From: a virus
Reading direction: 5' to 3' (one strand)
Virus record (IMG/VR): IMGVR_UViG_3300029787_000099
Coordinates: 1-29,069 of that record
DNA: 29,069 nt
Under the pieces are notes generated by a model. The model was not told the origin of the DNA and made no database searches. It saw only the letters and a program-made list of their open reading frames with translations. Position 1 is the first letter of the stretch, and every line of letters begins with the position of its first letter. Made by a program: the position numbers and the translations under genes. Positions 913 to 25,133 of the stretch are shown here, piece after piece.

Positions 913-913
913 T

Positions 914-5638: not shown

Positions 5639-6724
5639 ATGAGTTTTTTGAAAAAGATAGCAGAAATAGCAAGAAAACAAAATGATGAAATGTCTATAGG
5701 TGGTATAGGCGGTGATGACGGGGCTAGTGGTCCAAGAGAAGATATAAGACCTTTAGAACCACCGTTTAGAATACCTCCTCCTGTAAGAGACAATAGAATA
5801 ATGTCTGATCAAGGTATCGGCGGGTATTTAAATCCTAATCAAATAAACCAGTTTGTTAACCCACCTAGTCCCAATAATGCAGCTGGTCAAAGGAACATGG
5901 CTGACTTACTACAGCAACAAGCAGATACTTTCGGTGGAATGCTTACGTATGCTCCGCCCCCTAATGATGAAACACCTCCCAGTGATGATAATACTGGTGG
6001 CGGTGGTAATACTGGTGGCGGTGGAAGTGGTGGCGGTGGAACTGGTGGCGGTGGAACTGGTGGCGGTACAGATGACGAAGTCCGTCGAGATATACTTGAT
6101 GAAATAAGAAGGAGAAGAGACAGACTCCCACCTTTTGATATTCCTATGGTTCCCCCTAGAGATTTACCACCCTTTGATATTCCAGGGTTACCTCCTATGG
6201 TTCCTCCTATAGATTTACCACTCGACAGAGACTTAATTGATTACGGTTATGGTCCAGGAATAATGCCCCCTTTACCACCTTTTGATATTTCAGGTATAGG
6301 TAGTTTACCTGTAGCTCCACCTATGAGAGATGTGCCCCCTGTAGTACCGCCTAGAGATATACCGCCACCAAGACCACCTTTTGTTCCTCCTAGAGATGAG
6401 CAAATATTTGTACCGCCTAGAAATATTACTGATATAGATATGCCACGTATAGATGATATGGTAAATGTACCCCCGCCTATGGCTCCTCCTATAGCACCAC
6501 CCATAACTTTACCTAGAGGTAATGATGGTATAGGCTCAATATCAATAGATGATTTACCTAGATACGATGAACGAGTGACTTTACCTAGTGTTGATTTTTT
6601 AACGGGTGGTTTACCTAGTGTAAATTTACCACGTTCATTACCTGTGCCCCGTATGCCTAGTGGTATGGAAACTTTAGTTTCACCAGAAATATTAATGGGT
6701 CGTGGTAGAGGCAGATTACGTTAA
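5639..6724 (+). CDS. Proline-rich protein with glycine-repeat linker
   Basis: I prefer the ATG at 5639, directly after the previous stop (TAATATG); an in-frame GTG at 5630 would add three residues. After a short basic/helical N-terminus (MSFLKKIAEIARKQ) comes a ~30-residue Gly-rich linker (GGGGTGGG-type units). The rest is dominated by Pro-rich repeats such as PPFDIP, VPPRDLP, PPIDLPL, VPPRDIP and APPIAPP. It ends RGRGRLR. There are no cysteines, no catalytic motif and no fold prediction. It could be an extended, polyproline-II virion decoration or a tail/ejection component. It closes the rightward virion module, and its last 9 bases overlap the end of the opposing helicase gene. Confidence 0.65.
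   Translation: MSFLKKIAEIARKQNDEMSIGGIGGDDGASGPREDIRPLEPPFRIPPPVRDNRIMSDQGIGGYLNPNQINQFVNPPSPNNAAGQRNMADLLQQQADTFGGMLTYAPPPNDETPPSDDNTGGGGNTGGGGSGGGGTGGGGTGGGTDDEVRRDILDEIRRRRDRLPPFDIPMVPPRDLPPFDIPGLPPMVPPIDLPLDRDLIDYGYGPGIMPPLPPFDISGIGSLPVAPPMRDVPPVVPPRDIPPPRPPFVPPRDEQIFVPPRNITDIDMPRIDDMVNVPPPMAPPIAPPITLPRGNDGIGSISIDDLPRYDERVTLPSVDFLTGGLPSVNLPRSLPVPRMPSGMETLVSPEILMGRGRGRLR
5993..6067 (+). repeat. GC-richer tandem repeat, ~15-bp unit encoding Gly-rich linker
   Basis: About five imperfect copies of a unit beginning ACTGGTGGCGGTGG encode the glycine linker of the proline-rich protein. The run is far richer in G than the surrounding sequence. A repeat like this can change copy number by slippage, so linker length may vary between relatives. 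Confidence 0.8.
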
Positions 6725-8161
6725 CCAATCTTTAAGGCTATCCTCACCTAATATAGTACTAGCTATAGATTGTTTTTTACGTAAAGCTTTTACTATTTTT
6801 TCATCAACGGTACGTTCACAAACTATATCAATATAAGTTACTTTATTAGTTTGACCTATACGGTGGGCTCTATCTTCTGATTGTAAACGTTTTTCAAGGT
6901 CGTAATTATTACTAAAATATATAACCGTACTAGCAGCAGTCAAAGTTATACCGTAGCCACCCGTTTGAGTATTACCTACAAAAAATCTCATAGGGCTACT
7001 AGGGTTTTGAAACTCATTTATAACAAATTCTCTACGTTCTTGTTTAACATCCCCATAGTAAGTACCCACAGATTCTTCACCGTAAGTATCAATCAATAGT
7101 TTTTCTATTCTTTTTATGTCGTGTCGGTAGTTAGCCCAAATGATCACTTTACCGTCAGTTTCCTCTAAAATAGAGGATAATTCTGATACTCTATTATTAG
7201 TTAACTCGGTAATACTACCGTCATCCGTCCCTATGAATCCGCATGAAATTTGATGTAACCGTATTATCTGAGTCATGATATGATTTATAGTTACTAGCTT
7301 ATTATTTGCTAACTGCGTAGCAGCAAAGTTCTGTAATTCTTTATACGCTTTAGTTTGTTCAGGTGTCATTTGTATTTCACGGCGTATATAAATCTTTTCT
7401 GGTAAATCTAAACAATCTTTTTTCAAAACTCTGTGGCTAAACTTACCTAACGTTTCATTTAACTCATCTAAATTTTTATAACCAGTAACAAACTTAAAAG
7501 TTCTACCTTGACCAGTCATTTCTTTCATGTCTGCATACCTAGCACGGAATGCGTAGTAACTGCTAAAACCTAATAAACCTGGATCTAAAAACATACACTG
7601 ACTATATAAGTCAAGTGGGCTTTTAGTTATAGGAGAGCCAGTTAGTATCCTTCTATAGTGTGCATACTTACCTAACCTTACACAATTTATAGTACGTTTA
7701 GCTGAAGGGTTTTTAATAGTTGTACTTTCATCTATTACGAACATAGTTTTATTAGCCTGTATAAATTTATTTGCATACTGGCAACCTTTTTTAGTACTAA
7801 AAGCTTCTATGTTCATTACTAGTATTTTTAATTTATTGTCATACTTAAATAATGAATCTAATTCTTTTAGTAATTTTTTAGTATGGCTACTGCTCCACTT
7901 TACTATATCTAGTTCTATGTCGTCTGGTATGTGCGTTTGTAATTCTTTATTTACCCATGTACTATAAACACCTTTAGGTGCTACAATAAGTATATTGTTT
8001 AACTTACCTTGACTATAGAGGTGTACAAAGTTATCTATTATTACTTTTGATTTACCACAACCCATCTCCATAAATAGAGCATACTGTTTTCTATCACAAG
8101 ATTCAGTAAGAGCTTCTAGTTGATGGTCATAGGGTTTGGTTTTAAAATTATACTTATCCAT
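6716..8161 (-). CDS. SNF2/DEAD-like superfamily 2 helicase (481 aa)
   Basis: ATP-driven DNA translocase or helicase of the SNF2-like branch of SF2, expected to act on phage DNA in replication or recombination. The motifs appear in order: YDHQ near the N-terminus (11-14), motif I MGCGKS (33-38), DEST motif II (144-147), LTGSP motif III (173-177) and QSEDRAHRIGQ motif VI (427-437). The last is the SNF2 hallmark. The length fits the small phage versions that lack extra domains. It is the only minus-strand gene in the window. It faces away from the replication module across a ~340-base control region, and its 3' end runs into the virion module with a 9-base convergent overlap. GAGACGAG just before the ATG is a weak ribosome site. 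Confidence 0.93.
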   Translation of the reverse strand: MDKYNFKTKPYDHQLEALTESCDRKQYALFMEMGCGKSKVIIDNFVHLYSQGKLNNILIVAPKGVYSTWVNKELQTHIPDDIELDIVKWSSSHTKKLLKELDSLFKYDNKLKILVMNIEAFSTKKGCQYANKFIQANKTMFVIDESTTIKNPSAKRTINCVRLGKYAHYRRILTGSPITKSPLDLYSQCMFLDPGLLGFSSYYAFRARYADMKEMTGQGRTFKFVTGYKNLDELNETLGKFSHRVLKKDCLDLPEKIYIRREIQMTPEQTKAYKELQNFAATQLANNKLVTINHIMTQIIRLHQISCGFIGTDDGSITELTNNRVSELSSILEETDGKVIIWANYRHDIKRIEKLLIDTYGEESVGTYYGDVKQERREFVINEFQNPSSPMRFFVGNTQTGGYGITLTAASTVIYFSNNYDLEKRLQSEDRAHRIGQTNKVTYIDIVCERTVDEKIVKALRKKQSIASTILGEDSLKDWLT

Positions 8162-13221: not shown

Positions 13222-13716
13222 ATGAATATATTTTACGTACATAAAGACCCCGCACACGCTGCAATATGTTTACCCGATAAACTAGTAGTAAAAATGCCGT
13301 TAGAATCAGCTCAAATGCTTTGTACCGCACACCGTTTACTAAGCGGTGATGACTATTGTGATGAACGTGGTATTTATTTAAAAGCTTATATGAATCATCC
13401 TTGTACTATATGGGCTAGGGAAACTAGTCAAAACTATTTGTGGCTTTATTATCACTTTGTTGCTTTATGTAAAGAGTATGAAACTAGGTATGATAGGCAA
13501 CACCTTAGTTACGTAAAACTAAATGATTCTTTATGTCAATTACCTTTAGGTATACCTGACGCTGGTCTTACTACTATGCCTCAAGCTATGCCTGACGAGT
13601 ATAAAAACGACGACCCAGTAAAAGCTTACCGTGATTACGTAGTAAATGAAAAAACTTACGCTCAGTGGAATAAAATACCTACTAGGCAACCTGACTGGTG
13701 GCAATGTGCGTCCTAG
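13222..13716 (+). CDS. Conserved phage protein with DKxVVKMxLESAQML signature (164 aa)
   Basis: I recognise the pattern but not a proven function. The N-terminus NIFYVHKDP is followed by LPDKLVVKMPLESAQMLCTAHRLL, with MNHPCTIWAR and NYLWLYYHF in the middle and LTTMPQAMPDEYK then AYRDYVV at the end. This layout is conserved in many phage and bacterial proteins. A remote resemblance to pyrimidine-dimer glycosylase (T4 endonuclease V type) folds has occurred to me, but I cannot support it from sequence. It lies directly before a nuclease and a DNA-modification-like cluster and overlaps the nuclease start by 11 bases. The ATG has no ribosome site and a -10 box 9 bases upstream. Confidence 0.75.
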   Translation: MNIFYVHKDPAHAAICLPDKLVVKMPLESAQMLCTAHRLLSGDDYCDERGIYLKAYMNHPCTIWARETSQNYLWLYYHFVALCKEYETRYDRQHLSYVKLNDSLCQLPLGIPDAGLTTMPQAMPDEYKNDDPVKAYRDYVVNEKTYAQWNKIPTRQPDWWQCAS

Positions 13717-14050
13717 TAGTGCTAAAGCTAAAGGACGTAAACTACAGCAGTGGTTTACTAATAAAATGGTAGAGATACTAGGTTTAGACGCAGAGGACTT
13801 AGAAAGTAGACCTATGGGTAGCCAAGGCGAAGATATTATTATGGGTAAGCAGTCAAGAAATAAGTTCCCTTACTCTATAGAGTGTAAAAATCAAGAGGCT
13901 GTTAATTTATGGAAAGCTTACGCACAAGCTGAAGAAAACTGTAAAGGTTATGAGCCGTTAGTAGTATTAAAACGTAACAGAAGTAAACCGTTAGTTTTAG
14001 TAGACGCTGAATATTTTATAAGTATACATAAGGAAAATAATGACAACTGA
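13706..14050 (+). CDS. PD-(D/E)XK endonuclease, Holliday-junction-resolvase/VRR-NUC-like (114 aa)
   Basis: Small metal-dependent nuclease expected to cut branched or specific DNA structures in replication intermediates. The catalytic core is visible: GSQGED with Asp43, a strand, then IECKN with Glu59 and Lys61. An N-terminal basic helix (KAKGRKLQQWFTNKM) carries the likely first acidic residue Glu23. I chose the GTG at 13706, which starts MRPSSAKAKGRK and overlaps the previous gene by only 11 bases; an in-frame ATG at 13646 would add 20 residues inside that gene. The length matches phage resolvase-like members. It overlaps the following gene by 11 bases. Confidence 0.82.
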   Translation: MRPSSAKAKGRKLQQWFTNKMVEILGLDAEDLESRPMGSQGEDIIMGKQSRNKFPYSIECKNQEAVNLWKAYAQAEENCKGYEPLVVLKRNRSKPLVLVDAEYFISIHKENNDN

Positions 14051-14888
14051 AATTAATTTAAAAAGAGTACAAGACTTTAACGCTTTTATGATAGAGCGTC
14101 ATAATATGTTTATTAAAAAAGAAATAAATAATGAGCCGTATCCTTGGAGTGAGGACTCTATACTTACTGAATATAGTTTTTGTAACGTGTACCGTGAATT
14201 AGATAGGGTAACTATATGGATACGAGAAAACTGGAGAGAGCCATACGCTGACCACCCTAATTTACCTTTTGCTATGGCGGTAGCTAGGCAAATAAACTGG
14301 CCAGATACTTTAGAAGAAATAGGTTTTCCTGAGGAGTGGAGACCACAGCATGTTAAAAATATAATGCAAGATCGTATGGCTAGAAAAGAAAAAGTATATA
14401 CAGGGGCGTATATGTTAACTGGTACGTTAGGTGGAACTAAAGTAGAACAAACCGTTGACAAAATACTTACCCCGTTATATGCTAATTTTCCTTGTGACTT
14501 TAGTAGTTTAGAAAATTGTTGGAAAAGTTTTTTATCTTACGCTGGGTTTAGTGATTTTATGTCTTATGAAGTAGTAACTGATTTGCGTCATACTAAGTGG
14601 CTTTGTAAAGCTCCAGATATTATGGTTTGGGCTAACCCTGGACCAGGAGCTATGAGAGGTTTAAATAGAATATTTGGTAGACCGTTAGACAGTAAACAAA
14701 AGAAACCTTTATTTATACAGGAGATGAGGGATTTACTAGCGTTATTAAATAATGAGCCACTACCTTTAGAAATGAGAGACATAGAGCATTGTTTATGCGA
14801 GTTTGATAAATATGAGAGGGCACGGTTAGGTCAAGGTAGACCACGTGCTAAATATAAACCACGTGAATATGAGGAGGACATATTATAA
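14040..14888 (+). CDS. aGPT-Pplase / HMUDK-helical-domain-like thymine hypermodification protein (282 aa)
   Basis: The N-terminus carries the signature I associate with the alpha-glutamyl/putrescinyl-thymine pyrophosphorylase and 5-hmdU-DNA-kinase helical-domain superfamily. That is a helical, DNA-glycosylase-like fold found in phages with hypermodified thymine. The visible pieces are FMIERHNMF (16-24), PW then D and IL..Y (35-45), NVYRELDRVTIWI (49-61), MAVARQINWP and GAYMLTG. The C-terminal half is helical, with PGPGAMRGLNRIFG and LLNNEPLPLEMRDIEHCLCEFDKY. In characterised systems (phages ViI and SP10), relatives act after 5-hydroxymethyl-dU is placed in DNA and phosphorylated. No separate P-loop kinase is seen here, so the chemistry may differ. 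It is followed without a gap by a glycosyltransferase and a TS-family enzyme. Family assignment is from motif memory and needs a profile search. Confidence 0.72.
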   Translation: MTTEINLKRVQDFNAFMIERHNMFIKKEINNEPYPWSEDSILTEYSFCNVYRELDRVTIWIRENWREPYADHPNLPFAMAVARQINWPDTLEEIGFPEEWRPQHVKNIMQDRMARKEKVYTGAYMLTGTLGGTKVEQTVDKILTPLYANFPCDFSSLENCWKSFLSYAGFSDFMSYEVVTDLRHTKWLCKAPDIMVWANPGPGAMRGLNRIFGRPLDSKQKKPLFIQEMRDLLALLNNEPLPLEMRDIEHCLCEFDKYERARLGQGRPRAKYKPREYEEDIL

Positions 14889-15670
14889 TGATAATTTATA
14901 TTCCAACTAGAGGCAGAGCACACGATCAAGTTACTCTGTCATATTTCCCAGAGGACATGCGTAAAGACGTAGTCCTAGTAATTGATGATGATGAGGAGCA
15001 TTTATATGAAGGCAAATACGATTGTAAGTTTATGGTTATTCCTTCTACTATAAAAGGTATATCAGGTAAACGCCAGTATATACATCAAAATACTAGCGAC
15101 CCTAAAATAGTTATGCTAGATGATGACTTACGTTTTTATATACGTAAATCACCTACAGACTGGCACCTAAGGTACATGGAAGCTGATGAGTACCCAGCTT
15201 TATTTGGGCTACTAGATAAGTGGCTTGATGATTACGCTCATGTAGGGGTAAGCGGTAGAGAAGGTAATAACCGTGTTGAACATTTATCAGTAGAAAACAC
15301 TAGGTACATGAGAGTATTAGGTTACAACCTTGATATGTTTGACGGTATAGAATTAGCTAGAACTAAAGTAATGGAAGACTTTGATATAAACCTACAGTTA
15401 CTGCGTCAAGGTAAAGCTAGTAAAATCAGCTACTATTACGCACAAGGTCAAAAGTCATCTAATGCTGCGGGAGGCTGTAGCGAGTGGCGTACTGATGAAG
15501 TACAGTCAGAAGGTGCAGAGTTATTACATACCTTACACCCAGACTTTGTTAAGATAGTAGAAAAAGAAACAAAGACAGCATGGGGCGGGGGTATACGTAA
15601 AGACGTAAACGTACAATGGAAAAGAGCTTATAACAGCGGAGTTAACAAACAACAAGGGGGATTATTTTAA
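14888..15670 (+). CDS. GT-A-fold glycosyltransferase, TET-associated-glycosyltransferase-like (260 aa)
   Basis: Predicted nucleotide-sugar glycosyltransferase. It starts MIIYIPTRGRA, the usual GT-A opening strand and nucleotide-binding loop. VVLVIDDDEE follows, then GISGKRQYI and MLDDDL (76-81), the DxD that binds metal and UDP. Late motifs include GREGNNR, the YNLDMFD segment, a second acidic block MEDFDINLQLLRQG and a Gly-rich GGGIRKDVN. The order IPTRGR...LDDD...EDxDxxLQLL fits phage TET-associated glycosyltransferases, which decorate 5-hydroxymethyl-pyrimidines in DNA. No TET/JBP oxygenase is adjacent, so the acceptor would more simply be hmdU made by the next gene. Coupled both sides by TAATG overlaps. 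Confidence 0.75.
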   Translation: MIIYIPTRGRAHDQVTLSYFPEDMRKDVVLVIDDDEEHLYEGKYDCKFMVIPSTIKGISGKRQYIHQNTSDPKIVMLDDDLRFYIRKSPTDWHLRYMEADEYPALFGLLDKWLDDYAHVGVSGREGNNRVEHLSVENTRYMRVLGYNLDMFDGIELARTKVMEDFDINLQLLRQGKASKISYYYAQGQKSSNAAGGCSEWRTDEVQSEGAELLHTLHPDFVKIVEKETKTAWGGGIRKDVNVQWKRAYNSGVNKQQGGLF

Positions 15671-16677
15671 TGGACGTTATTAATTGTAGAAATGTAAATG
15701 ATGGTTTTATAAAAGCTATGGATATGCTTTCGTTTGACCAGCAAGATTTAAGAGAAAGTAGAGGGGGTCAAGTAGTAGAACACGAAGTGCCTGTGGCTAC
15801 GGTATTTAATAAACCTTGGGAAAGAGTTTTATTTGAAGAAGTAAGAGACGCTAACCCATTCTTCCATTTTATGGAAGGGTTGTGGATGTTAGCTGGTCGT
15901 AATGATTTAGCTTTTGTTCAACAGTATAATCAACGTATGTCTGAATATAGTGATGACGGTATTAATTTACACGGTGCTTACGGACACAGGTGGATAAACC
16001 ATTTTAACGCTAATCAAATAGATATAATAATTAAAAGGTTAATCAAAAACCCTAACGATAGACGTTGTGTACTACAAATGTGGGATGTTAATTCTGACCT
16101 TAACCGTGCTGGGGTTGATGTGCCTTGTAATACATGTATATATTTTAAGATACGTAATAACGAGTTATTGATGACCGTAAGTAATAGGTCTAACGATGTA
16201 ATATGGGGTACTTTCGGGGCTAATATAGTACATATGTCTATGCTTCATGAGTACATGGCTAGTGCTTTAGATGTTAGTATTGGGGCGTATACTCAGGTTA
16301 GTGATAGTTTTCATGCGTATACTAAAGTGTTTGATGAGATGCATTCTAGGCTTGAAAAAGCAGATGTATTTGATTATTACTCAATGAAACATTTTGAAAA
16401 CCCCTATGAAAATAGAGGTATCAATTATTACCCTATGGTAAACCAGACTAGCATAGAAAACTGGAATAAAGATTTACATAAGTTTTTAGAACGTAAACCT
16501 TTTGAAGATATGGAGTTTGAAGATATATTTTTTAGTCACGTAGCCGTACCTTTACAGGACGCTTGGTTTTTACATAAGCAGGGTGAAACTGATGACGCTA
16601 TGTCTGAAGTACAAAACTGTATAGCTACAGACTGGGCAACCGCAGGATTTGATTGGTTGTTAAGGAGGGCTAAGTGA
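15670..16677 (+). CDS. Thymidylate synthase family protein; candidate dUMP hydroxymethylase (335 aa)
   Basis: Folate-dependent methylase/hydroxymethylase of deoxyuridylate. Visible features: NDRR with Arg131/Arg132 for phosphate, the catalytic Cys153 in VPCNTC, NRSND (172-176) and GTFGANIVHMS (180-190). Asn185 sits where TS has the uracil-selecting Asn and dCMP hydroxymethylases have Asp, so dUMP is the predicted substrate. Differences from classical TS: the residue after the catalytic Cys is Asn, not His, and the distal motif is QVSDSFHAY rather than the usual GDxHIY. These differences, and neighbours of the DNA-hypermodification type, make 5-hydroxymethyl-dUMP synthesis plausible, but ordinary dTMP synthesis cannot be excluded. 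It is linked to the genes on both sides by TAATG and GTGA overlaps. Confidence 0.82.
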   Translation: MDVINCRNVNDGFIKAMDMLSFDQQDLRESRGGQVVEHEVPVATVFNKPWERVLFEEVRDANPFFHFMEGLWMLAGRNDLAFVQQYNQRMSEYSDDGINLHGAYGHRWINHFNANQIDIIIKRLIKNPNDRRCVLQMWDVNSDLNRAGVDVPCNTCIYFKIRNNELLMTVSNRSNDVIWGTFGANIVHMSMLHEYMASALDVSIGAYTQVSDSFHAYTKVFDEMHSRLEKADVFDYYSMKHFENPYENRGINYYPMVNQTSIENWNKDLHKFLERKPFEDMEFEDIFFSHVAVPLQDAWFLHKQGETDDAMSEVQNCIATDWATAGFDWLLRRAK

Positions 16678-17360
16678 GTGGTAAGATATATCAGTGGTCA
16701 TACAGTAGACTTAGTACCTTTGAAAAATGCCCTAAAAAAGCACACTTTGCTTATGTCAGGAAAATTAAAGAGCCTGGAAATAAGGCTATGGATAGAGGTA
16801 AAAATATACACACAATGTGTGAGGACTATATAAGAGGTAGGTATGAAGAGATACCTAAAGAACTAGCAGACTTTGAAGAAGCCTTTGACGTACTAAAAGA
16901 ACTGCACCTTAAAAGTTATGTTACCTGTGAGGGTGATTGGGCTTTTGATATAGACTGGAAACCTGCACCATGGTTCGGTGATACTACATGGGGTAGGGCT
17001 AAAGTAGATGCGTTTGTACATATAGACGGCACAGACACAGCTAGGGTTATAGATTTTAAAACAGGTAGGTATGACGGTAATCAAGAAGTACATAGAGAAC
17101 AGTGTGAGTTATACGGTGCGGTTGTGTTAGAACGTATGCCTGAAATAAAAACTATTACTACTGAGCTTTGGTATTTAGACCATGGTAAGATAGACAGGTA
17201 TGAATATAGTGCAGATAATATAGTACATAAACAAAAGAAATTAAATGACCGAGCAATTATTATGACTACGGCTACTGAGTTTCCAGCTAAACCCAGTACT
17301 TTCGGTTGTAAGTGGTGTTACTTTGGTAAGGAGAAAATGTGTGATGACAGATATGAATGA
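16674..17360 (+). CDS. Cas4/RecB-like PD-(D/E)XK exonuclease with predicted 4Fe-4S cluster (228 aa)
   Basis: DNA exonuclease of the PDDEXK_1 group that processes ends during recombination. It begins YSRLSTFEKCPKK. The core shows His46 in RGKNIH, Asp112 in KVDAF, Asp127 and Lys129 in IDFKTG, then Gln143 of motif QxxLY. Cysteines 19, 212, 215 and 223 (CP... and GCKWCYFGKEKMC) are arranged as in Cas4 and AddB iron-sulphur clusters. The start is GTG, with AAGGAGG at 16662-16668 five bases upstream and a GTGA overlap with the TS-family stop. Nothing suggests a CRISPR context. Confidence 0.9.
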   Translation: MSGKIYQWSYSRLSTFEKCPKKAHFAYVRKIKEPGNKAMDRGKNIHTMCEDYIRGRYEEIPKELADFEEAFDVLKELHLKSYVTCEGDWAFDIDWKPAPWFGDTTWGRAKVDAFVHIDGTDTARVIDFKTGRYDGNQEVHREQCELYGAVVLERMPEIKTITTELWYLDHGKIDRYEYSADNIVHKQKKLNDRAIIMTTATEFPAKPSTFGCKWCYFGKEKMCDDRYE

Positions 17361-17844
17361 TTTATTTAATATGATACGTGGCGGGGCTATAAAACGTTAC
17401 CACACTTTAGAAATTATAGGTGAGCAATCAGTAGCTTCTCACTCGTGGGGCGTAGCTATGATACTACAGTATTTAGAGCCTAACGTAAGTAAAGAAGCCA
17501 TATTAAGAGCTTTAACCCATGACGTAGCAGAACTATTTACTGGAGACATACCCGCCCCTGTTAAATGGGCTAACCCAGATTTAGTAGAAGTATTAAAAAG
17601 GATAGAAGATAAATACGAAAGTGATATAGGTATAGGGTTTAAGTTAAGCCCAGAAGAAACCGCTTTAGGTAAACAGGCAGACATGTTTGAGTTATTAGTT
17701 TTTTGTGTACGTCAAAGGCGTTTAGGCAATACTAATATGAATGAAGTTTTTAGCAACGGTGTTGAGTATTTAGCATCAATTAATTTGAATAAACGGGGTA
17801 AGGCGTTGCTAGGTTATCTCACCAAAATATATGGAGGTATATAG
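17341..17844 (+). CDS. HD-domain 5'-deoxynucleotidase, YfbR-like (167 aa)
   Basis: Predicted dephosphorylation of deoxynucleoside monophosphates. The HD set is visible: a first basic-His segment KRYHTL, ASHSWGVAM with the metal His, then LTHDVAELFTGDIPAPVKW, the diagnostic YfbR-type block. A later QADMFELLVF provides the distal Asp. I chose GTG at 17341, seven bases after AAGGAG (17328-17333); ATG at 17344 is also possible. The longer frame from 17323 starts before the ribosome site. It overlaps the nuclease gene by about 20 bases. In a thymine-modifying phage it could remove dTMP or host dNMPs so that the modified precursor is used; that is inference. Confidence 0.87.
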   Translation: MMTDMNDLFNMIRGGAIKRYHTLEIIGEQSVASHSWGVAMILQYLEPNVSKEAILRALTHDVAELFTGDIPAPVKWANPDLVEVLKRIEDKYESDIGIGFKLSPEETALGKQADMFELLVFCVRQRRLGNTNMNEVFSNGVEYLASINLNKRGKALLGYLTKIYGGI

Positions 17845-18143
17845 TGGACGGTAGTAATTTTGATATTATACAAGACTTAGCTAACTTAGACGTAGCTAAA
17901 CTTAGAGAGGCTCAGGTGAGCTATGGTGACAGTTGGCGTAATAGGGGTGGCGTAGGTGCGTTTATGATGTTAGCCCGTAAGTGGGATAGGATAGAGAATC
18001 AAGTAACTAAAGAGGGTTACGATATATTTAAAACTATAAATAATGACCCTAGTAATGACGGCATACTAGATGACATACGTGATTTACGTAGGTACTTATT
18101 ACTAGTAGAGGGCTACATAATAGACAGTACTAAATATGATTAA
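17844..18143 (+). CDS. DUF1599-like (nucleotide-modification-associated domain) protein (99 aa)
   Basis: Short helical protein with YGDSWRNRGGVGAFMMLARKWDRIEN (27-52) and LDDIRDLRRYLLLVE (75-89). I associate this pattern with DUF1599, named a nucleotide-modification-associated domain because it travels with thymidylate-synthase-like and base-modification genes. The conserved Glu and Asp residues on paired helices are reminiscent of MazG-type all-alpha NTP pyrophosphatases, so a role in cleaning or sorting modified dNTPs is possible. It starts at GTG with GGAGGT five bases upstream, sharing bases with the previous TAG. It overlaps the next gene by 8 bases. Confidence 0.72.
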   Translation: MDGSNFDIIQDLANLDVAKLREAQVSYGDSWRNRGGVGAFMMLARKWDRIENQVTKEGYDIFKTINNDPSNDGILDDIRDLRRYLLLVEGYIIDSTKYD

Positions 18144-18549
18144 AGGTATAACTTTTAGTGCGTTTGATTTATTTCATGCAGGGCATGTGAGTATGTTATC
18201 GGAGGCTAAACAAGAATGTGATTACTTGATAGCCTGTATACACGCCGACCCCAGTAAAGAAAACTCAAATAAAAATAAACCTATACAAAGTTTATTAGAA
18301 CGTCAAATACAGGTAAACGGTTGCCGTTACGTAGATGAAACTTTAGTATATGAAAACGAAGAAGACTTACGTAATATATTAAGGACTGTGCCTTGGGACG
18401 TAAGAATTATAGGCGAAGAATATATGAATAAACACTTTACAGGTAAAAAAGAATTTAACATACCTAGTAAAAAAGTTTACTACAATTACAGGCAACATAC
18501 GTTTAGTAGTAGTGAGTTAAGAGAAAGAATTATATGCAAAGACAAGTAA
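18136..18549 (+). CDS. TagD-like cytidylyltransferase / nucleotidyltransferase (137 aa)
   Basis: HIGH-superfamily transferase resembling glycerol-3-phosphate cytidylyltransferase. The active-site HAGH (14-17) follows FSAFDLF. The C-terminus has YNYRQHTFSSSELRERI, equivalent to the RT.gISTT..R loop. The length (137 aa) matches TagD (~130). It would attach CMP to a phosphorylated small substrate, yielding a CDP-activated donor. It sits in the modification cluster, so it might supply an activated donor for DNA decoration, but surface-glycan or other roles are possible. Overlaps on both sides (8 and 16 bases) show co-expression with the polymerase. Confidence 0.87.
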   Translation: MIKGITFSAFDLFHAGHVSMLSEAKQECDYLIACIHADPSKENSNKNKPIQSLLERQIQVNGCRYVDETLVYENEEDLRNILRTVPWDVRIIGEEYMNKHFTGKKEFNIPSKKVYYNYRQHTFSSSELRERIICKDK

Positions 18550-20420
18550 GTTTATTTACGCCCGAGGTGGACTGGACACCGCCAACTAGTTTACCAGACC
18601 TGAGTGGATACAGTGAGGTAGCTATTGACTTAGAGACATACGACCCACTATTAATGTCTCATGGTCCATCTTGGGCATTCCCAGACGCTGGGTACATAAC
18701 TGGTATAGGTATAGCGACTAAAGATTTTAGTTTGTATTTTCCTATACAGCATGAGGGCGGAGGTAATTTAGATAAGGGTTTAGTACTTAGGTGGCTAACT
18801 AAACAAATGGCTTATAAAAACGATAAAATATTTCATAACTCTTTATATGATGTAGGTTGGCTAAAACGCTACGGTATAAAAGTACACGGCAAAATACAAG
18901 ACACTATGTTCGCAGCACCCTTAATAGATGAGAATCAATACAGTTACTCACTCAATAACTTAGGTGAAAAATATTGTGGAGAAACTAAAGATGAAACTTT
19001 ACTTATTGAAGCAGCAGAAGCATATGGGCTAAACCCTAAAAGTGAGATGTATAAACTGCCTGCTAAATACGTTGGTCCGTACGGTGAGCAAGACGCAGAA
19101 CTAACCTTAAAGTTGTGGCAGGTATTTAAAGAATTAATTAAACTAGAAAACGTAGGCAAGATATACGAACTTGAAACTTCACTAATACCCATACTATTAG
19201 ACATGAGATATAAAGGCGTACCCGTTGACCTTGACGTAGCCGAGCAAGTAAGTAAAAAATTAAAGACAGAAGAAAACCAGATAATAAACGCTATTAATAA
19301 AGAGTTCGGTATGAAACCTGACCTATGGGCAGCACAGTCAGTAGCTACGGTATTTGATAGAGCAGGGCTAAGTTACCCACGTACACCTAAAACTAACGCT
19401 CCGTCTTTTTCTGGTGATTGGTTAGAAAGTCATGACCATAAACTAGCTAATAATATAGTAAGAGCACGTAAGCTAAATAAAGCTAGAACTACGTTTATAG
19501 ATAAAATGATACTAGAACATAACGTAAACGGCAGAATACACGGGGAACTTCACCCGTTACGTAGTGACCGTGGAGGTACAGTAACAGGTAGGTTTAGCAG
19601 TAGTAACCCTAACCTACAACAAGTACCAGCCCGTAACGAAGACATAGGTCCACTTATACGTAGTATCTTTGTACCTGAAAAAGACCATCACTGGGGTGTG
19701 TTTGATTATTCTCAACAAGAACCTAGACTTACTGTGCATTACGCTTCCTCTACAGAACAAGAAGGTGCAGAAGATGCTGTAGATGCCTACCGTAATAAAG
19801 ATGCAGACTTTCATCAGGTAGTAGCAGACATGGCTAACATAAGCCGTAAAGAAGCCAAGATTATTAATTTAGGTTTGAGCTACGGTATGGGTAAAGACAA
19901 GTTAGTAAAACAATTAGATTTATCTATGCAAGAAGCAGAAGTATTATTTGACACATATCATAAAAGAGTACCTTTTATCAAAGGGTTACGAGATCAATGT
20001 GCTAGGATAGGTGCTAATCGTGGATATATAACTACTATAGCTGGGCGTAAATGTAGGTTTAATTTATATGAACCTATGAAAGAAAGAAACATTCCGTACC
20101 CTTACGAAAAAGCGGTTACTGAGTACGGTAGTCAAGTTAAGAGAGCGTACACGTATAAAGCTATGAACAGACTTATACAAGGTTCAGCAGCAGACATGAC
20201 TAAACAAGCTATGGTTGAACTATATAACGAAGGCATATTACCACATACCCAAGTACACGACGAGTTAGATATATCAGTTACTGATCCTGACCAATGTGAA
20301 CTTATTATGAAAATTATGTCAGAATGCACACCTTTACGTGTTCCCAATAAAGTTGATGCAGAGATAGGTAAAAACTGGGGACAAGCAACAGTTCATTATA
20401 AGGAGTATTTTAATGAGTAA
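18534..20420 (+). CDS. polA: Family A DNA polymerase with 3'-5' exonuclease (628 aa)
   Basis: Replicative polymerase of the phage. The exonuclease domain is intact: IDLET with Asp32/Glu34, FHNSLYDVGW for Exo II and YGEQDAEL for Exo III. In the polymerase domain, GRFSSSNPNLQQVP precedes motif A FDYSQQEPR (Asp391). The O-helix RKEAKIINLGLSYG carries Arg438, Lys442 and Tyr450, and motif C is VHDE (His575, Asp576). The residue matching E. coli Pol I Phe762 is Leu446. There is no 5'-3' exonuclease domain, as usual for phage enzymes. It starts at an ATG that overlaps the cytidylyltransferase by 16 bases, and its last 8 bases overlap the HTH gene. The phage-specific gene order polymerase then HTH suggests it ends the replication unit. 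Confidence 0.95.
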   Translation: MQRQVSLFTPEVDWTPPTSLPDLSGYSEVAIDLETYDPLLMSHGPSWAFPDAGYITGIGIATKDFSLYFPIQHEGGGNLDKGLVLRWLTKQMAYKNDKIFHNSLYDVGWLKRYGIKVHGKIQDTMFAAPLIDENQYSYSLNNLGEKYCGETKDETLLIEAAEAYGLNPKSEMYKLPAKYVGPYGEQDAELTLKLWQVFKELIKLENVGKIYELETSLIPILLDMRYKGVPVDLDVAEQVSKKLKTEENQIINAINKEFGMKPDLWAAQSVATVFDRAGLSYPRTPKTNAPSFSGDWLESHDHKLANNIVRARKLNKARTTFIDKMILEHNVNGRIHGELHPLRSDRGGTVTGRFSSSNPNLQQVPARNEDIGPLIRSIFVPEKDHHWGVFDYSQQEPRLTVHYASSTEQEGAEDAVDAYRNKDADFHQVVADMANISRKEAKIINLGLSYGMGKDKLVKQLDLSMQEAEVLFDTYHKRVPFIKGLRDQCARIGANRGYITTIAGRKCRFNLYEPMKERNIPYPYEKAVTEYGSQVKRAYTYKAMNRLIQGSAADMTKQAMVELYNEGILPHTQVHDELDISVTDPDQCELIMKIMSECTPLRVPNKVDAEIGKNWGQATVHYKEYFNE

Positions 20421-20727
20421 ACGCACAGAAAAAGATGACATGTATCTTACTATTTATAAAAATTATTCGAAAGACAACATGACTCTAGAAGAGATAGGTA
20501 TTAAACACGGAGTCACTAAGGCACGAGTATGGCAAATAGTCAGATTTAGTCAATTAGGTGAAGGTGATTATTACACAGGGTACAAAGCTTACATGAATAA
20601 AAAGTCACAGATAGACGGTACACCTGAATTAACAACTAAGCAAAGAAGCACCAAACTAAGGGCGTGGTTAAATAACCAAGATATACGCCTTATAAAAGGT
20701 AAGTACGACTCTTCAACCGTTAGTTAA
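20413..20727 (+). CDS. Small helix-turn-helix DNA-binding protein (104 aa)
   Basis: Residues ~18-44 (NYSKDNMTLEEIGIKHGVTKARVWQIVRF) form a clear sigma-region-4-like helix-turn-helix: TLEEIG, turn at GV, recognition helix KARVWQIV. The rest is short, basic and without another domain. It could be a transcription regulator acting on the phage promoters or a DNA-binding accessory. It is the last gene of the replication unit and overlaps the polymerase stop by 8 bases. A gap of 99 bases with promoter-like and hairpin elements follows. Confidence 0.75.
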   Translation: MSKRTEKDDMYLTIYKNYSKDNMTLEEIGIKHGVTKARVWQIVRFSQLGEGDYYTGYKAYMNKKSQIDGTPELTTKQRSTKLRAWLNNQDIRLIKGKYDSSTVS

Positions 20728-20745
20728 TTATCTTTTAGATTATCC

Positions 20746-20774
20746 TTTTAATCACTAGTGAGCTAAACTAAAGT
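20746..20774 (+). promoter_or_regulatory. Weak promoter candidate before the DUF932 gene
   Basis: TATCC directly precedes TTTTAA (20746-20751). A 17-base spacer and TAAAGT (20769-20774) follow. The upstream TATCCTTT matches two stronger promoters in this window, but both boxes are poor. Listed because the DUF932 gene needs its own promoter or read-through. Confidence 0.3.
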
Positions 20775-20801
20775 AAGGGTAGTTAGCTAATGACGGCTAA
20801 C
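20762..20801 (+). promoter_or_regulatory. Mutually exclusive hairpins in the DUF932 leader
   Basis: TAGTTAGC (20780-20787) can pair upstream with GCTAAACTA (20762-20770, one bulged A). Its GTTAGC part (20782-20787) can instead pair downstream with GCTAAC (20796-20801). The two folds exclude each other, a pattern seen in attenuators. A perfect AAGGAGG ribosome site follows at 20814-20820. No T-run supports termination, so a translational switch or chance pairing are alternatives. Confidence 0.4.
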
Positions 20802-20826
20802 GTAACAACCTTTAAGGAGGTAAATT

Positions 20827-21855
20827 ATGGCAGCAGCCGTAGAAACAATGGCTTATGCAGGGGAAGTACCTTGGCATGGGCTAGGCGTTAAAGTTGATAA
20901 TAACTTAACACCTGAAGAAATGTTAGTTGAAGCTGGACTTGATTGGACAGTTAGTAAGCGTGAAATATTTACATATGATGACGCTGACCCAGATAAGTCT
21001 AACGACTTAATTATGGCACCTAACCACTCACTATTAGTACGTGATAGTGATAATACAGTCTTTGGACCATGTGGACCAAAGTTTATACCAACCCAAAACC
21101 GTGACGCATTTACGTTTTTCAAAAAGTTTACCGACGCAGGTAATATGAGTATGGAAACTGCAGGTTCGTTAAAAGACGGTCGTCAAATATGGGGTTTAGC
21201 TAAAGTTGATGAAAGCTTTACCTTACCAGGAGACGACAGGGTATTAGGTAACTTGCTTGTGTCAGTTAGTCACGAGTGGGGTAAGTCTAATGAAATTAGG
21301 TTTACGCCTATAAGAGTAGTATGTAACAATACGTTAAGTATGGCTTTAGCTGATAAAACTCAGCCACATTTTAAAATGGCACATACTAAAGCGTTTGATG
21401 CAGACCTTATAGTAACTGCAGAGCAGGCACTAGGTTTAGCAAGTAACCGTATGAAAGAGTACAAAGAAGCAGCAGAGTTTTTATGCAGTAAAAAGTATAA
21501 TAAAAATACTGTGGTTTCTTATATAGCTGACTTAATGCAACCTAAACTAGCTATGCAACAAAGGTTGCTAGAGCAAAGTAAAACTGAAAAAACATACTTA
21601 GCCCGTGCTACTATGTTAGATGAGTTTCAGCGTGCACCTAGTAAGGTATATGAAGCGTTAGAACTACAACCAGGAGCCAACTTAAAAAGTAGTGCTGGTA
21701 CTTGGTGGGGTGCTATGAATGCCGTAACCTTTGTCGTTGACCATAAGTGGGGACACGACCGTGACGCAGCAATGCATAACGCTTGGTTCGGGGCTAGGGC
21801 TAGTCTTAAAACTAGGGCTATGACTCAAGCTATTGACTATGCTAAGGCAGCATAA
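20827..21855 (+). CDS. DUF932-family phage/plasmid protein (342 aa)
   Basis: Member of the DUF932 (phage/plasmid-like) family, whose function is unknown. Diagnostic parts: AYAGEVPWHGLG near the N-terminus, LDWTVSKREIF, then NHSLLVRDSDN, GPKFIPTQNRDAF and TAGSLKDGRQIW. VVCNNTLSMAL follows, and the C-terminal half is helical. Its length is typical. A perfect AAGGAGG seven bases before the ATG and a private leader suggest high expression. It overlaps the next gene in TAATG. Members are widespread in phages and plasmids, often near replication or anti-restriction-like genes, but no role can be assigned. Confidence 0.9.
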   Translation: MAAAVETMAYAGEVPWHGLGVKVDNNLTPEEMLVEAGLDWTVSKREIFTYDDADPDKSNDLIMAPNHSLLVRDSDNTVFGPCGPKFIPTQNRDAFTFFKKFTDAGNMSMETAGSLKDGRQIWGLAKVDESFTLPGDDRVLGNLLVSVSHEWGKSNEIRFTPIRVVCNNTLSMALADKTQPHFKMAHTKAFDADLIVTAEQALGLASNRMKEYKEAAEFLCSKKYNKNTVVSYIADLMQPKLAMQQRLLEQSKTEKTYLARATMLDEFQRAPSKVYEALELQPGANLKSSAGTWWGAMNAVTFVVDHKWGHDRDAAMHNAWFGARASLKTRAMTQAIDYAKAA

Positions 21856-22400
21856 TGACTAACGAAGTTAGTTTTGTTTACTTCCTACCTGACTCTCCTA
21901 GTCGGGTAGTGAAGTTTTATATGAGTGAGATGCATAAAGTAAGGGGAGGGGGTATAGCTATAGGCGACCCTGATATTATGGCACCAGCCCTACCAATACA
22001 ACAAGCTGAAAAGTGGTATGAAATCCACACAGGTAAAAAGAAAACATTTAAGGACGTTAAAACTGGTCAAAAAACTTTATATAACGTGCTTATGAAAAAA
22101 GCGGTAAAAATGGAGGAGGAAGATATGTCTAATAAATACAGACAAGTACCGAAGATTGATATACCTAAACCTAATAACTATTGTAAGACTGTACGTGGTC
22201 GTGATCCTTACGACACTAGTCAAATACTTACTAGAACTGATAAAATGCCTATGAGTCAGAATAATAAAGACAGACTTAGGAAGTATGAAGGTAAGCCTAC
22301 TATACAAGATGTTTTAGATAAAGGCATACTGAACCTTAACGATATTAAATACGATATTAAGCTAGGTTATATAACTAAAACATCTAAGGTTAAGGCTTAA
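21855..22400 (+). CDS. Unknown basic protein with C-terminal TIQDVL...KYDI motif (181 aa)
   Basis: Not recognised. Residues ~1-75 form a compact domain (EVSFVYFLPDSPSRVVKFY; QQAEKWYEIHTGKKKTFKDV). A basic Pro/Lys-rich linker follows (KYRQVPKIDIPKPNNY, PMSQNNKDRLRKYEGK). The last ~35 residues contain TIQDVLDKGILNLNDIKYDI. The C-terminus of the protein at 26760-27032 has the same spacing (T..-..L..G.....D-hydrophobic-.YDI), so this looks like a shared small domain. Overall charge and linker suggest nucleic-acid binding. It is translated together with the DUF932 protein, and a hairpin overlaps its stop codon. Confidence 0.7.
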   Translation: MTNEVSFVYFLPDSPSRVVKFYMSEMHKVRGGGIAIGDPDIMAPALPIQQAEKWYEIHTGKKKTFKDVKTGQKTLYNVLMKKAVKMEEEDMSNKYRQVPKIDIPKPNNYCKTVRGRDPYDTSQILTRTDKMPMSQNNKDRLRKYEGKPTIQDVLDKGILNLNDIKYDIKLGYITKTSKVKA

Positions 22401-22413
22401 TATAAGCCGTTTT
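22394..22413 (+). terminator. Short intrinsic-type terminator overlapping the stop codon
   Basis: GGCTTA (22394-22399) pairs with TAAGCC (22403-22408) around a 3-base loop, and GTTTT follows. The stem includes the TAA stop. The T-run is short, so efficiency may be modest. Confidence 0.5.
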
Positions 22414-22472
22414 AAGCGTTTGAATAGGTTAATAGGTTATATAGCCTTACTTACTAATTCATACGCTTAAAA
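22410..22472 (+). promoter_or_regulatory. Long hairpin in the 22401-22557 intergenic gap
   Basis: TTTTAAGCGT (22410-22419) pairs perfectly with ACGCTTAAAA (22463-22472). After one T/T mismatch, TGAAT (22421-22425) pairs with ATTCA (22457-22461). This gives a 15-bp stem around a ~31-base loop. There is no T-run after it. It may protect the upstream message end or bind a regulator. Confidence 0.55.
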
Positions 22473-22498
22473 ACCTTTAAATTAATTACTGATTATCC

Positions 22499-22527
22499 TT
22501 TACTGATTAATATTCAGTAGGTATTAT
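22499..22527 (+). promoter_or_regulatory. Promoter candidate TTTACT-17-TATTAT
   Basis: TTTACT (22499-22504), exactly 17 bases, then TATTAT (22522-22527). It is preceded by TATCC, as in other copies of this signature. The spacer contains TACTGA...TCAGTA, an inverted repeat that overlaps the -35 end. It would transcribe 22558 onward. Confidence 0.65.
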
Positions 22528-22557
22528 ATTAATAATATATAAATATGGAGTTAATAT

Positions 22558-22779
22558 ATGGAAAATCAAAATACAGTATGGGTAGTAAGCTACGGCACTA
22601 CCTCACTAGATAACAGAAGTGAAGTTATATGCTATGACGAAGACTCTGTAGAAGCAGCATGTATGAATTTAGATGACAGGTTTAACCCTGAAACTATATA
22701 CGTATTCACCAGACCACACACCAGCGATACAAACGGGTATTTCTGGAAAGGGGGGCATATACTAGTCAATGGAAAATGA
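22558..22779 (+). CDS. Small unknown acidic protein (73 aa)
   Basis: Not recognised. Begins MENQNTVWVVSYGTTS, a beta-strand-like opening, and continues with DEDSVEAACMNLDDRF and IYVFTRP. There is no cysteine pair, membrane segment or HTH. It is the first gene behind the 22499 promoter, with GGAG six bases before its ATG (ATGGAGTTAATATATG). It overlaps the next gene by 11 bases. Confidence 0.6.
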   Translation: MENQNTVWVVSYGTTSLDNRSEVICYDEDSVEAACMNLDDRFNPETIYVFTRPHTSDTNGYFWKGGHILVNGK

Positions 22780-23005
22780 TACTCAAATACCGATACCTAG
22801 TAGGTCAGAAACTGCACCTCAAGTTTATCACTTTTATAAACTAGACGTAGGTGACCACATGGATATAAAAGCCGAAGACCCAGAAAATTTAAAAAGGGTA
22901 CGTGGTGCTGCTAGTATATACGGTAAACGCAATGATAAATCTTTTGTTACACGTAGCGTGTTTCATGAGGGTAGGAAAATATTAAGGTTATGGAGAACGA
23001 GGTAG
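22769..23005 (+). CDS. Small basic protein ending in an R-x-YGKR...LRLWRT pattern (78 aa)
   Basis: The N-terminal half is acidic and Pro-rich (IPIPSRSETAPQ). The C-terminal half is basic: LKRVRGAASIYGKRNDKSFVTR and RKILRLWRTR. Proteins ending in this A-S-x-Y-G-(K/R)-R...F..R....LR-V/L-WR pattern occur in many phages and look like a short DNA-binding or beta-hairpin domain. I know no function. It overlaps both neighbours (11 and 16 bases). Confidence 0.62.
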   Translation: MENDTQIPIPSRSETAPQVYHFYKLDVGDHMDIKAEDPENLKRVRGAASIYGKRNDKSFVTRSVFHEGRKILRLWRTR

Positions 23006-23664
23006 TATCATATTTACGTTGCGCTTGTCCTAAGTGTAAAAAACCTGTGGCTAGTAAAGCACGTAAGTATTGTTCTGATAAATGTTTAAAAAAAGCTATG
23101 ACGTTAAGAAATATGGAGGCTTATAGAGGCGTTTATTCTGAGTTCGGTGAAAATAGTGGACCTCGTAGTATGGTTAGTGAAAGTTCTATACGTAAAAATG
23201 AAACTCATGTTACGGGTAACGGTGAGTTTGTAGTTGACGACTATCCCGTTGACCCAGATATATTCGCCATAGCTGAAGCTAACCACGAACAATACGTTCT
23301 TGATAGAAATGAATATGAAGCTAGGGTAGTTATTGACGGGTTAACAATCTTTCAAGAAGAATATGATAAAAACCATGACGTAAGTTATTCAAGTGAACAA
23401 ACTAAAAAACATGAAGCTAATTTAACAGAAGAAGATAAGGCAATAAGGGCTATAAAAAACAGAAAATATCAACAAGAAAATAAAGAAAGAATAAGTAAAC
23501 AAGCAAGAGAAAGATACAGAGCTAACCCTGAAAAATACAGAAAAATACATAGAGATTATTATCACAAGAATAAAAATAAAATTAAGGAGTACTCTAGAAA
23601 ATATTATGAAAACAAAAAAGAAATTATCGCCGAAGCAAGAAAAATACGCTCAAAACGTAGCTAA
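22990..23664 (+). CDS. Zinc-ribbon protein with long Lys/Arg/Tyr-rich basic tail (224 aa)
   Basis: The N-terminus has CACPKC (12-17) and CSDKC (~32-36), a probable zinc-binding CxC/CxxC...CxxxC module. The middle is acidic and soluble. From about residue 150 on there is a repetitive basic helix with units like RKYQQENKERI, ARERYRANPEKY, RKIHRDYYHKN and SRKYYENKKEI. Tails of this kind are often found attached to phage HNH nucleases and DNA-binding proteins, but no HNH residues are present. It is a likely DNA or RNA binder. Its last 59 bases overlap the start of the terminase small subunit gene. Confidence 0.68.
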   Translation: MENEVVSYLRCACPKCKKPVASKARKYCSDKCLKKAMTLRNMEAYRGVYSEFGENSGPRSMVSESSIRKNETHVTGNGEFVVDDYPVDPDIFAIAEANHEQYVLDRNEYEARVVIDGLTIFQEEYDKNHDVSYSSEQTKKHEANLTEEDKAIRAIKNRKYQQENKERISKQARERYRANPEKYRKIHRDYYHKNKNKIKEYSRKYYENKKEIIAEARKIRSKRS

Positions 23665-24434: not shown

Positions 24435-25133
24435 ATGGATAGGTCAAAACCCTACAGAATTAAAAACACAATGTTAGCTATACAATCAGACTGGATGATT
24501 GATAAAACTACGTTAGCTATGATACAGGACGCTGAACCTGATATTATAAAATTTCACTCAGGCGACGGTACTCAAAAACTAGAAATACCGTTACAAGAAT
24601 ATATAAAAGAAGAACTACCTGACGTTTACTCCGTGCCTTTATTTACGGAAGACTTCTGTGATATGATGCTAGATGAAATAAAAAACATGGAGCTGTATCT
24701 AGGGTTTAAAGAAAATGATGACGAGGACGAGTTAAGGCAAATACCTGAAATAACTCTACAAGACAATATACCCCAACTAGCCTCTAACTTACATAGCGTA
24801 GCCCTTAACCATATGAACCCTTTATTTACCGCAGTGTGGCAACGTTACAGCCTTAAATATAATTCTATACAATTAGCTAACTATAATCTAGCTAAAAGAG
24901 AGCAGGGTGAGTGGCATCATGACGCCAGTGCTGATATATCTTTAGTAGTACCTTTAAATACTGGTGACTATGAAGGCGGAGGTACTGAGTTTCATGGTAG
25001 GGGTGTAGTACCGCCATTACCACGTGGTCATGCTTTATTTTTCCCTAGTTTTACTCACATGCACCGTGGACTAAAGGTCGGTAAAGGCGACAGATACTTA
25101 TTGGTATTTTGGTTACTAGGTGCATACGACTAA
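24435..25133 (+). CDS. 2-oxoglutarate/Fe(II)-dependent oxygenase, P4H/PLOD-like (232 aa)
   Basis: Predicted non-haem iron dioxygenase that hydroxylates a protein or nucleic-acid substrate using 2-oxoglutarate. The C-terminal jelly-roll carries the metal triad: His161-x-Asp163 in WHHDAS and His210 in FTHMHRG. Arg220 in GDRYLLVFW binds 2-oxoglutarate. The loop YEGGGTEFHG before it is typical of prolyl/lysyl hydroxylases. The first ~110 residues form a phage-specific helical N-terminal part. The length is usual for phage 2OG enzymes, which are common in cyanophages and marine phages. AGGAG sits upstream of the ATG, and a promoter candidate follows the stop. The substrate is unknown; ribosomal protein, tail or DNA targets are all possible. 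Confidence 0.88.
   Translation: MDRSKPYRIKNTMLAIQSDWMIDKTTLAMIQDAEPDIIKFHSGDGTQKLEIPLQEYIKEELPDVYSVPLFTEDFCDMMLDEIKNMELYLGFKENDDEDELRQIPEITLQDNIPQLASNLHSVALNHMNPLFTAVWQRYSLKYNSIQLANYNLAKREQGEWHHDASADISLVVPLNTGDYEGGGTEFHGRGVVPPLPRGHALFFPSFTHMHRGLKVGKGDRYLLVFWLLGAYD

Follow-up and report, generated by a model that had tools for sequence, protein, structure and literature searches.

A glycosyltransferase in the place of a kinase suggests that phages disguise their DNA with exchangeable enzymes

Hypermodification of 5-hydroxymethyldeoxyuridine (hmdU) in phage DNA by way of a kinase is already known: the DNA of phage M6 contains 5-NedU, and 5hmdU was proposed to substitute for thymine first (PMC6449724). 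In T-even phages, glycosyltransferases of the TAGT family act on hydroxymethylcytosine (hmC; PMC13216743, PMC13390438). According to a 2019 paper, glucosylated 5hmdU was then unreported in phages, and our literature search, which missed several key papers (e.g. Iyer 2013), returned no later report of glycosylated phage hmdU. Here we describe a locus of a marine phage, located in bases 1-29069 of the 43,558-base IMG/VR record IMGVR_UViG_3300029787_000099 (hereafter the window, i.e. the whole stretch of DNA analysed), which encodes an HMUDK_hel protein, a TAGT-family glycosyltransferase and a homologue of thymidylate synthase (TS). We consider it probable (about 0.7) that these three proteins constitute a pathway for the glycosylation of hmdU in phage DNA. 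The glycosyltransferase occupies the place of a kinase in other phages; this suggests that phages draw on a set of swappable enzymes to disguise their DNA.

A conserved trio between resolvase and polymerase

On the + strand of the window, a RusA-like resolvase gene and a gene for DNA polymerase A enclose a gapless series of overlapping genes (14040-18549); with these border genes included, the run spans 13646-20420. An earlier reading made from the sequence only (the sequence-only reading) had described an overlapping cluster in this position, and the matches to phrog_244 on the left and PF00476 on the right bear this out. The core consists of three genes:

14040-14888, + strand: HMUDK_hel protein, 282 aa (PF18723 2.1e-46, phrog_2396 1.1e-62)
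14888-15670, + strand: TAGT-family GT-A glycosyltransferase, 260 aa (PF20691 8.5e-23, phrog_842 5.8e-54)
15670-16677, + strand: TS-family protein, predicted dUMP hydroxymethylase, 335 aa (PF00303 1.9e-20)

The order HMUDK_hel-TAGT-TS is repeated in about 60 sister loci with HMUDK_hel identities of 63-97%, and this recurrence excludes a chance arrangement. When viral contigs were scanned with the window's TAGT protein as query, 58 loci were obtained. In those that extend over the region, the genes for HMUDK_hel, TAGT and TS are kept together, while the genes for an HD protein, a small protein (17844) and a cytidylyltransferase-like protein appear, vanish or shift place. Among 27 deduplicated TAGT clusters, TS was found in all 27, the HD gene in 15 and the cytidylyltransferase gene in 5; the P-loop hmdU kinase and ADDT were found in none. 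As these accessory genes come, go and move while the trio persists, the module to be explained is HMUDK_hel-TAGT-TS. The six-gene pathway cluster of the sequence-only reading is thus retained for HMUDK_hel, TAGT and TS and given up for the three genes that are variable or mobile in relatives.

The same three genes also occur together in eight further loci (L063, L156, L159, L168, L176, L180, L183 and L188) and in two contigs of metagenome-assembled genomes, the sole matches in genome_contigs, with both gene orders seen; in divergent contigs the TAGT gene lies either before or after HMUDK_hel. The cultured Brevibacterium phage LuckyBarnes, which infects Brevibacterium iodinum and for which a complete genome is available, shows the order TS-TAGT-TAGT-HMUDK_hel. 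The Microbacterium phage WilliamStrong was set aside as an additional TAGT lineage: its match is confined to positions 2-104 of PF20691, a custom hidden Markov model (HMM) was negative, and its TS homologue is of the Asp type.

Profile searches placed the proteins encoded at 14040 and 14888 within the HMUDK_hel and TAGT families, respectively, and structure prediction agreed with both assignments. The TAGT protein scored 81.8 bits against PF20691 (cut-off 27.5). Its LDDD motif comprises residues 77-80, of which D78 and D79 are invariant across 34 relatives, and its AlphaFold2 (AF2) model (pLDDT 91) matched the GT-A proteins TarP, TarS and GnT-I in Foldseek with TM values of about 0.45, fold matches which assign no particular sugar. 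A sequence search against the PDB gave no significant match. The family match, the GT-A fold and the DDD metal motif confirm the GT-A glycosyltransferase with LDDD previously proposed at 14888. The same reading had regarded an aGPT-Pplase-like protein combined with a glycosyltransferase, without a TET/JBP enzyme, as unusual or new. A TAGT without TET/JBP is in itself nothing unusual, as the TAGTs of T-even phages work on hmC (PMC13216743, PMC13390438); the family owes its name to an association with TET/JBP which the T-even members lack. No TET/JBP protein was found among the Pfam-scanned genes of the window genome, a scan that took in part of the small open reading frames (ORFs).

HMUDK_hel, which is present in the TAGT sister loci that cover its place, scored 159 bits against PF18723 (cut-off 25). 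Its AF2 model (pLDDT 93) matched, in BFVD, HMUDK_hel proteins and the 5-hmdU DNA kinase of SP10 (TM 0.75); a weaker match there was ADDT (TM 0.58). Neither sequence nor fold searches against the PDB gave a significant match; weak fold matches to RuvA (E above 1) were not used. The link between HMUDK_hel and ADDT rests on the fold search, since hhalign returned a probability of only 25%. The protein had been read as related to both aGPT-Pplase and the HMUDK helical family; the latter assignment holds, and the protein does not indicate an amino-acid (aGPT-Pplase) route here, as ADDT is absent.

The TS homologue carries Asn185 at the position that discriminates dUMP, in agreement with the dUMP-type Asn noted before. 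The surrounding motif WGTFGAN is identical in SPO1 gp29, annotated as dUMP hydroxymethylase, and reads WGAYGAN in M6 gp58; T4 gp42 and the TS homologues of Microbacterium phages have Asp at this site. Asn or Asp in this position determines the preference for dUMP or dCMP (PMC8670742). In a TS tree, which contains some long branches, the protein falls into a clade with M6 gp58 and SPO1 gp29 (support 98/99) that is separate from dTMP synthases and from enzymes of the dCMP type. Among PDB entries, it matches a CMP 5-hydroxymethylase best (5e-22). Orthology and active-site residues thus point to a dUMP hydroxymethylase and argue for 5-hmdU as the base, as had been supposed.

The supposed absence of a P-loop hmdU kinase was also confirmed. 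PF18748, the model of this kinase, was negative in the window genome, in 22 sister records, in LuckyBarnes and in phage ctUhy936. Because PF18748 misses the kinase of phage phiW-14, a custom HMM was built from known kinases; it recovered the kinases of phiW-14 (71 bits) and Simon (135 bits) and found nothing in the TAGT genomes G000, G014, G009, G016, G006 and G004 or in LuckyBarnes. The ORFs with Walker-A motif in these genomes encode a UvrD helicase, a primase-helicase and a few other proteins unlike a small kinase. Neither the custom HMM nor the Walker-A scan thus revealed a kinase overlooked by PF18748 in these genomes. Models for ADDT, PLP and radical-SAM proteins were negative in G000, G014, G009, G016 and LuckyBarnes, and a genome search which included the 43.6-kb contig found neither kinase nor amino-acid:DNA transferase genes. 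Of these genomes, the sister genome G014 (62,781 bases) is probably complete, because it carries an exact 123-base terminal repeat.

Predicted glycosylation of hmdU and competing explanations

The TAGT match together with the absence of kinase and ADDT favours glycosylation as the most likely decoration of hmdU, as the sequence-only reading had proposed. In the pathway that we infer, the TS homologue would convert dUMP to 5-hydroxymethyl-dUMP, which would be phosphorylated to hmdUTP and then used instead of T when the phage polymerase makes DNA, in the manner of SPO1 and phiW-14. Once the DNA is replicated, the GT-A enzyme would move a sugar from a probably host-made NDP-sugar to the 5-hydroxymethyl group, giving 5-(glycosyloxymethyl)uracil, a base-J-like product. 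HMUDK_hel would not act as a kinase here; it is predicted to recognise hmdU in DNA and present it to the resident transferase, be it a kinase, a GT-A or GT-B enzyme or perhaps a sulfotransferase. The phage would probably gain protection from restriction and from hmU glycosylases.

The most serious competing explanation, which we regard as unlikely yet far from negligible, is that TAGT alone glycosylates hmdU and that HMUDK_hel has a separate role, such as ADDT-like catalysis or protection of hmdU sites, without any cooperation of the two proteins. The fold that HMUDK_hel has in common with ADDT (TM 0.58) makes a catalytic role of its own possible. Furthermore, ctUhy936, a circular 40.4-kb record labelled complete, encodes TAGT, a dUMP-type hydroxymethylase, an HD protein and DUF3310 (19992-22682) without HMUDK_hel, hence HMUDK_hel is not always needed. 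Both points weigh against the joint pathway, as does the fact that the characterised T-even TAGT glucosylates hmC which is already glucosylated (PMC13216743). A separate role is opposed by the lack of ADDT and kinase chemistry in these genomes and by the survival of HMUDK_hel, usually near a transferase, through repeated changes of its partner.

Glycosylation of hmdU would likewise be called into question if the phospho-intermediate route were kept by a diverged or host kinase and TAGT acted on another substrate, e.g. the host envelope. The very name of HMUDK_hel comes from its link to the kinase, and PF18748 does miss some diverged kinases, as the negative result for phiW-14 shows. However, the custom HMM which recovers that kinase finds none here, no ORF with Walker-A motif resembles a small kinase, ADDT is missing, and kinase and TAGT are mutually exclusive; we therefore consider this route improbable.

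To a similarly small degree probable is a further decoration of the sugar with a phospho-alcohol supplied as CDP-alcohol by the cytidylyltransferase, comparable to the phosphoglucuronolactone of phage SP-15. A CTP_transf_like gene does lie inside the operon, but it is mobile and present in just 5 of the 27 TAGT clusters, and the sole candidate transferase is a weak match to LicD at 22990. Sugar decoration by LicD and the cytidylyltransferase was rejected, as this match (E 0.005) corresponds in homologues to a fast-evolving, CxxC-containing low-complexity protein. The protein at 22990-23664 is itself lysine-rich, and its Pfam match to LicD looks spurious.

At 24435-25133, the window encodes an OGFOD2-like 2-oxoglutarate (2OG)-Fe(II) dioxygenase-like protein (7e-7, under the cut-off), in which the HxD motif, a distal His and an Arg are conserved in an alignment of 22 relatives. 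That this protein hydroxylates T for subsequent transfer by TAGT, as in base J, with an ordinary thymidylate synthase encoded at 15670, finds some support in these residues but is improbable as well, because the TS homologue lies within the hydroxymethylase clade and matches CMP hydroxymethylase best in the PDB, and because the oxygenase is 6 kb distant and not assigned by Pfam to TET/JBP.

Transferase partners of HMUDK_hel

Scans with HMUDK_hel alignments, combined with the loci found earlier, gave 222 loci, which fall into 74 clusters. Of these clusters, 23 have a kinase nearby, 33 have a TAGT and/or a GT-B glycosyltransferase, and none has both kinds (Fisher P, phylogeny ignored, 2e-6 for kinase versus TAGT and 2e-8 for kinase versus any glycosyltransferase). 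Both TAGT and GT-B members occur in two clusters, and ADDT accompanies the kinase in 14 of 15 clusters and TAGT in none. On a HMUDK_hel tree built by a quick method, at least 14 partner changes are required when kinase, TAGT and GT-B are distinguished and at least 9 between kinase and glycosyltransferase; strongly supported branches alone force at least 5 kinase changes. The kinase locus L161 and the GT-B locus L164, for example, are sisters with SH-aLRT 100. For this tree L155, L243 and L247 were labelled GT-B by hand; the GT-B identity of L171 is given by Pfam (4e-9, over the cut-off), that of L155, L164, L243 and L247 by sub-threshold matches. The following loci combine HMUDK_hel and TS with a GT-B gene that replaces TAGT or the kinase:

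L155, 8986-13673
L164, 8935-12419
L171, 7764-10879
L243, 7998-11225

The first of these additionally contains genes for an FkbM methyltransferase, a dUTPase and a cupin.

One cluster combines HMUDK_hel with an APS kinase and a sulfotransferase-like gene. In its locus (L165; IMGVR_UViG_3300033143_001775, 596-5170), HMUDK_hel is accompanied by the APS kinase (2.7e-12), a PIG-L-like deacetylase, TS and HD proteins, and a Sulfotransfer_3-like protein (4e-5, under the cut-off); a wider search for the latter returned its own contig and no second example. Sulfated thymine DNA is a possible product of this gene set.

From these results HMUDK_hel may be a general module for handling hmdU in DNA, with a kinase, a TAGT of the GT-A type, a GT-B enzyme or, in one lineage, an APS kinase with a sulfotransferase as exchangeable partners, a generalisation to which we give even odds. 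A swappable transferase slot of this kind is not visible from the window sequence alone. Several observations weigh against the inferred pathway and this wider role of HMUDK_hel. The cluster counts are phylogenetically non-independent, and 17 of the 74 clusters have no recognised partner, some of them adjoining GT-B-like ORFs without Pfam support. In the Microbacterium phages Koji (L073) and WilliamStrong (L068), HMUDK_hel occurs with a TS homologue of the dCMP type, which resembles the T4 dCMP hydroxymethylase in having Asp at the pyrimidine-discriminating site. Specificity for hmdU is therefore not universal, and HMUDK_hel may serve hmC too. If the general module is real, it implies a family of unseen thymine hypermodifications, including glycosylated and possibly sulfated thymine DNA.

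Neighbouring genes and comparison with known systems

The remaining genes of the run are:

13646-14050, + strand: RusA-like/PDDEXK resolvase (phrog_244 1.2e-18, PF24608 1.5e-5); left border, context
16674-17360, + strand: PD-(D/E)XK exonuclease-like protein (PF12705 3.5e-20, phrog_69 3e-22); between TS and HD
17353-17844, + strand: YfbR-like HD 5'-deoxynucleotidase (PF12917 1.3e-17); accessory
17844-18143, + strand: small conserved protein, no family match in Pfam or NCBIfam
18136-18549, + strand: cytidylyltransferase-like nucleotidyltransferase, RfaE/TagD-like (PF01467, CTP_transf_like, 1.2e-14); optional
18534-20420, + strand: DNA polymerase family A (PF00476 2.7e-61); right border, context

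Pfam and PHROGs support the main identifications of the sequence-only reading, which had omitted the PD-(D/E)XK gene and assigned DUF1599 to the protein at 17844-18143, a label without library support here or for the similar ORFs of five related loci. The place of this small gene differs among relatives. The PD-(D/E)XK gene adjoins TS in nearly all sister loci and probably has a function in replication or recombination, outside the pathway. The expected HD 5'-deoxynucleotidase was recovered; it perhaps serves nucleotide-pool control and occurs also in kinase-type phages, e.g. M6 and Pam3. The cytidylyltransferase had been called TagD-like: it is a nucleotidyltransferase by its Pfam match, and an RfaE-type heptose-1-phosphate adenylyltransferase (1e-15) is equally close as glycerol-3-phosphate cytidylyltransferase (3e-14), each under its own cut-off.

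Adjoining the modification genes, a phrog_624 protein (13222-13716) shows a pyrimidine-dimer-glycosylase-like Pfam match (2e-8) and could be a base-flipping DNA-binding protein. On the - strand, 6716-8161 encodes an SNF2-type helicase which also scores against models of the defence helicases Zorya ZorD and DpdE; the replication region of Sonora contains a homologue. The window was also scanned for tRNAs and against Rfam, with no matches.

The analysis predicts O-glycosylated, base-J-like hmdU as a phage genome base. It also proposes that HMUDK_hel, hitherto tied to the kinase by its name, assists various DNA-modifying transferases as a common partner, a role that can be tested on the isolated phage LuckyBarnes. 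LuckyBarnes resembles the window phage in having TS, TAGT and HMUDK_hel without a kinase; it differs by two TAGTs, a TS outside the M6/SPO1 clade and identities of about 28-31% to the window proteins.

In M6, Sonora and Pam3, the related replication region encodes ADDT, HMUDK_hel and the P-loop hmdU kinase close to TS and PolA. The M6/YuA-like pathway agrees with the window in the order of the genes for dUMP hydroxymethylase, HMUDK_hel and PolA, M6 also encodes an HD nucleotidase, and Sonora has the SNF2/Pam3-gp32-34 backbone in common with the window phage. However, M6 makes 5-NedU and possesses P-loop hmdU kinase, ADDT, PLP and radical-SAM genes, all of which are absent from the window phage, where TAGT is present on a related backbone.

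The T-even TAGT, beta-glucosyl-HMC-alpha-glucosyltransferase, is likewise a GT-A protein of PF20691/phrog_842 acting on phage DNA (PMC13216743). Its substrate is glucosylated hmC derived from a dCMP-type hydroxymethylase, whereas the TAGT of the window is the only recognised glycosyltransferase and would act on a dUMP-derived base. Bacillus phage SP-15 also contains a glycosylated thymine-derived base, with glucose on dihydroxypentyluracil (PMC5977210), but differs in the side chain and in a large carbohydrate gene cluster. The product predicted here corresponds to kinetoplastid base J, an O-glycosylated 5-hydroxymethyluracil; JBP1/2 and JGT produce base J from T that is already part of the DNA (PMC6449724), whereas in the window phage hmdU is predicted to arise at the nucleotide level.

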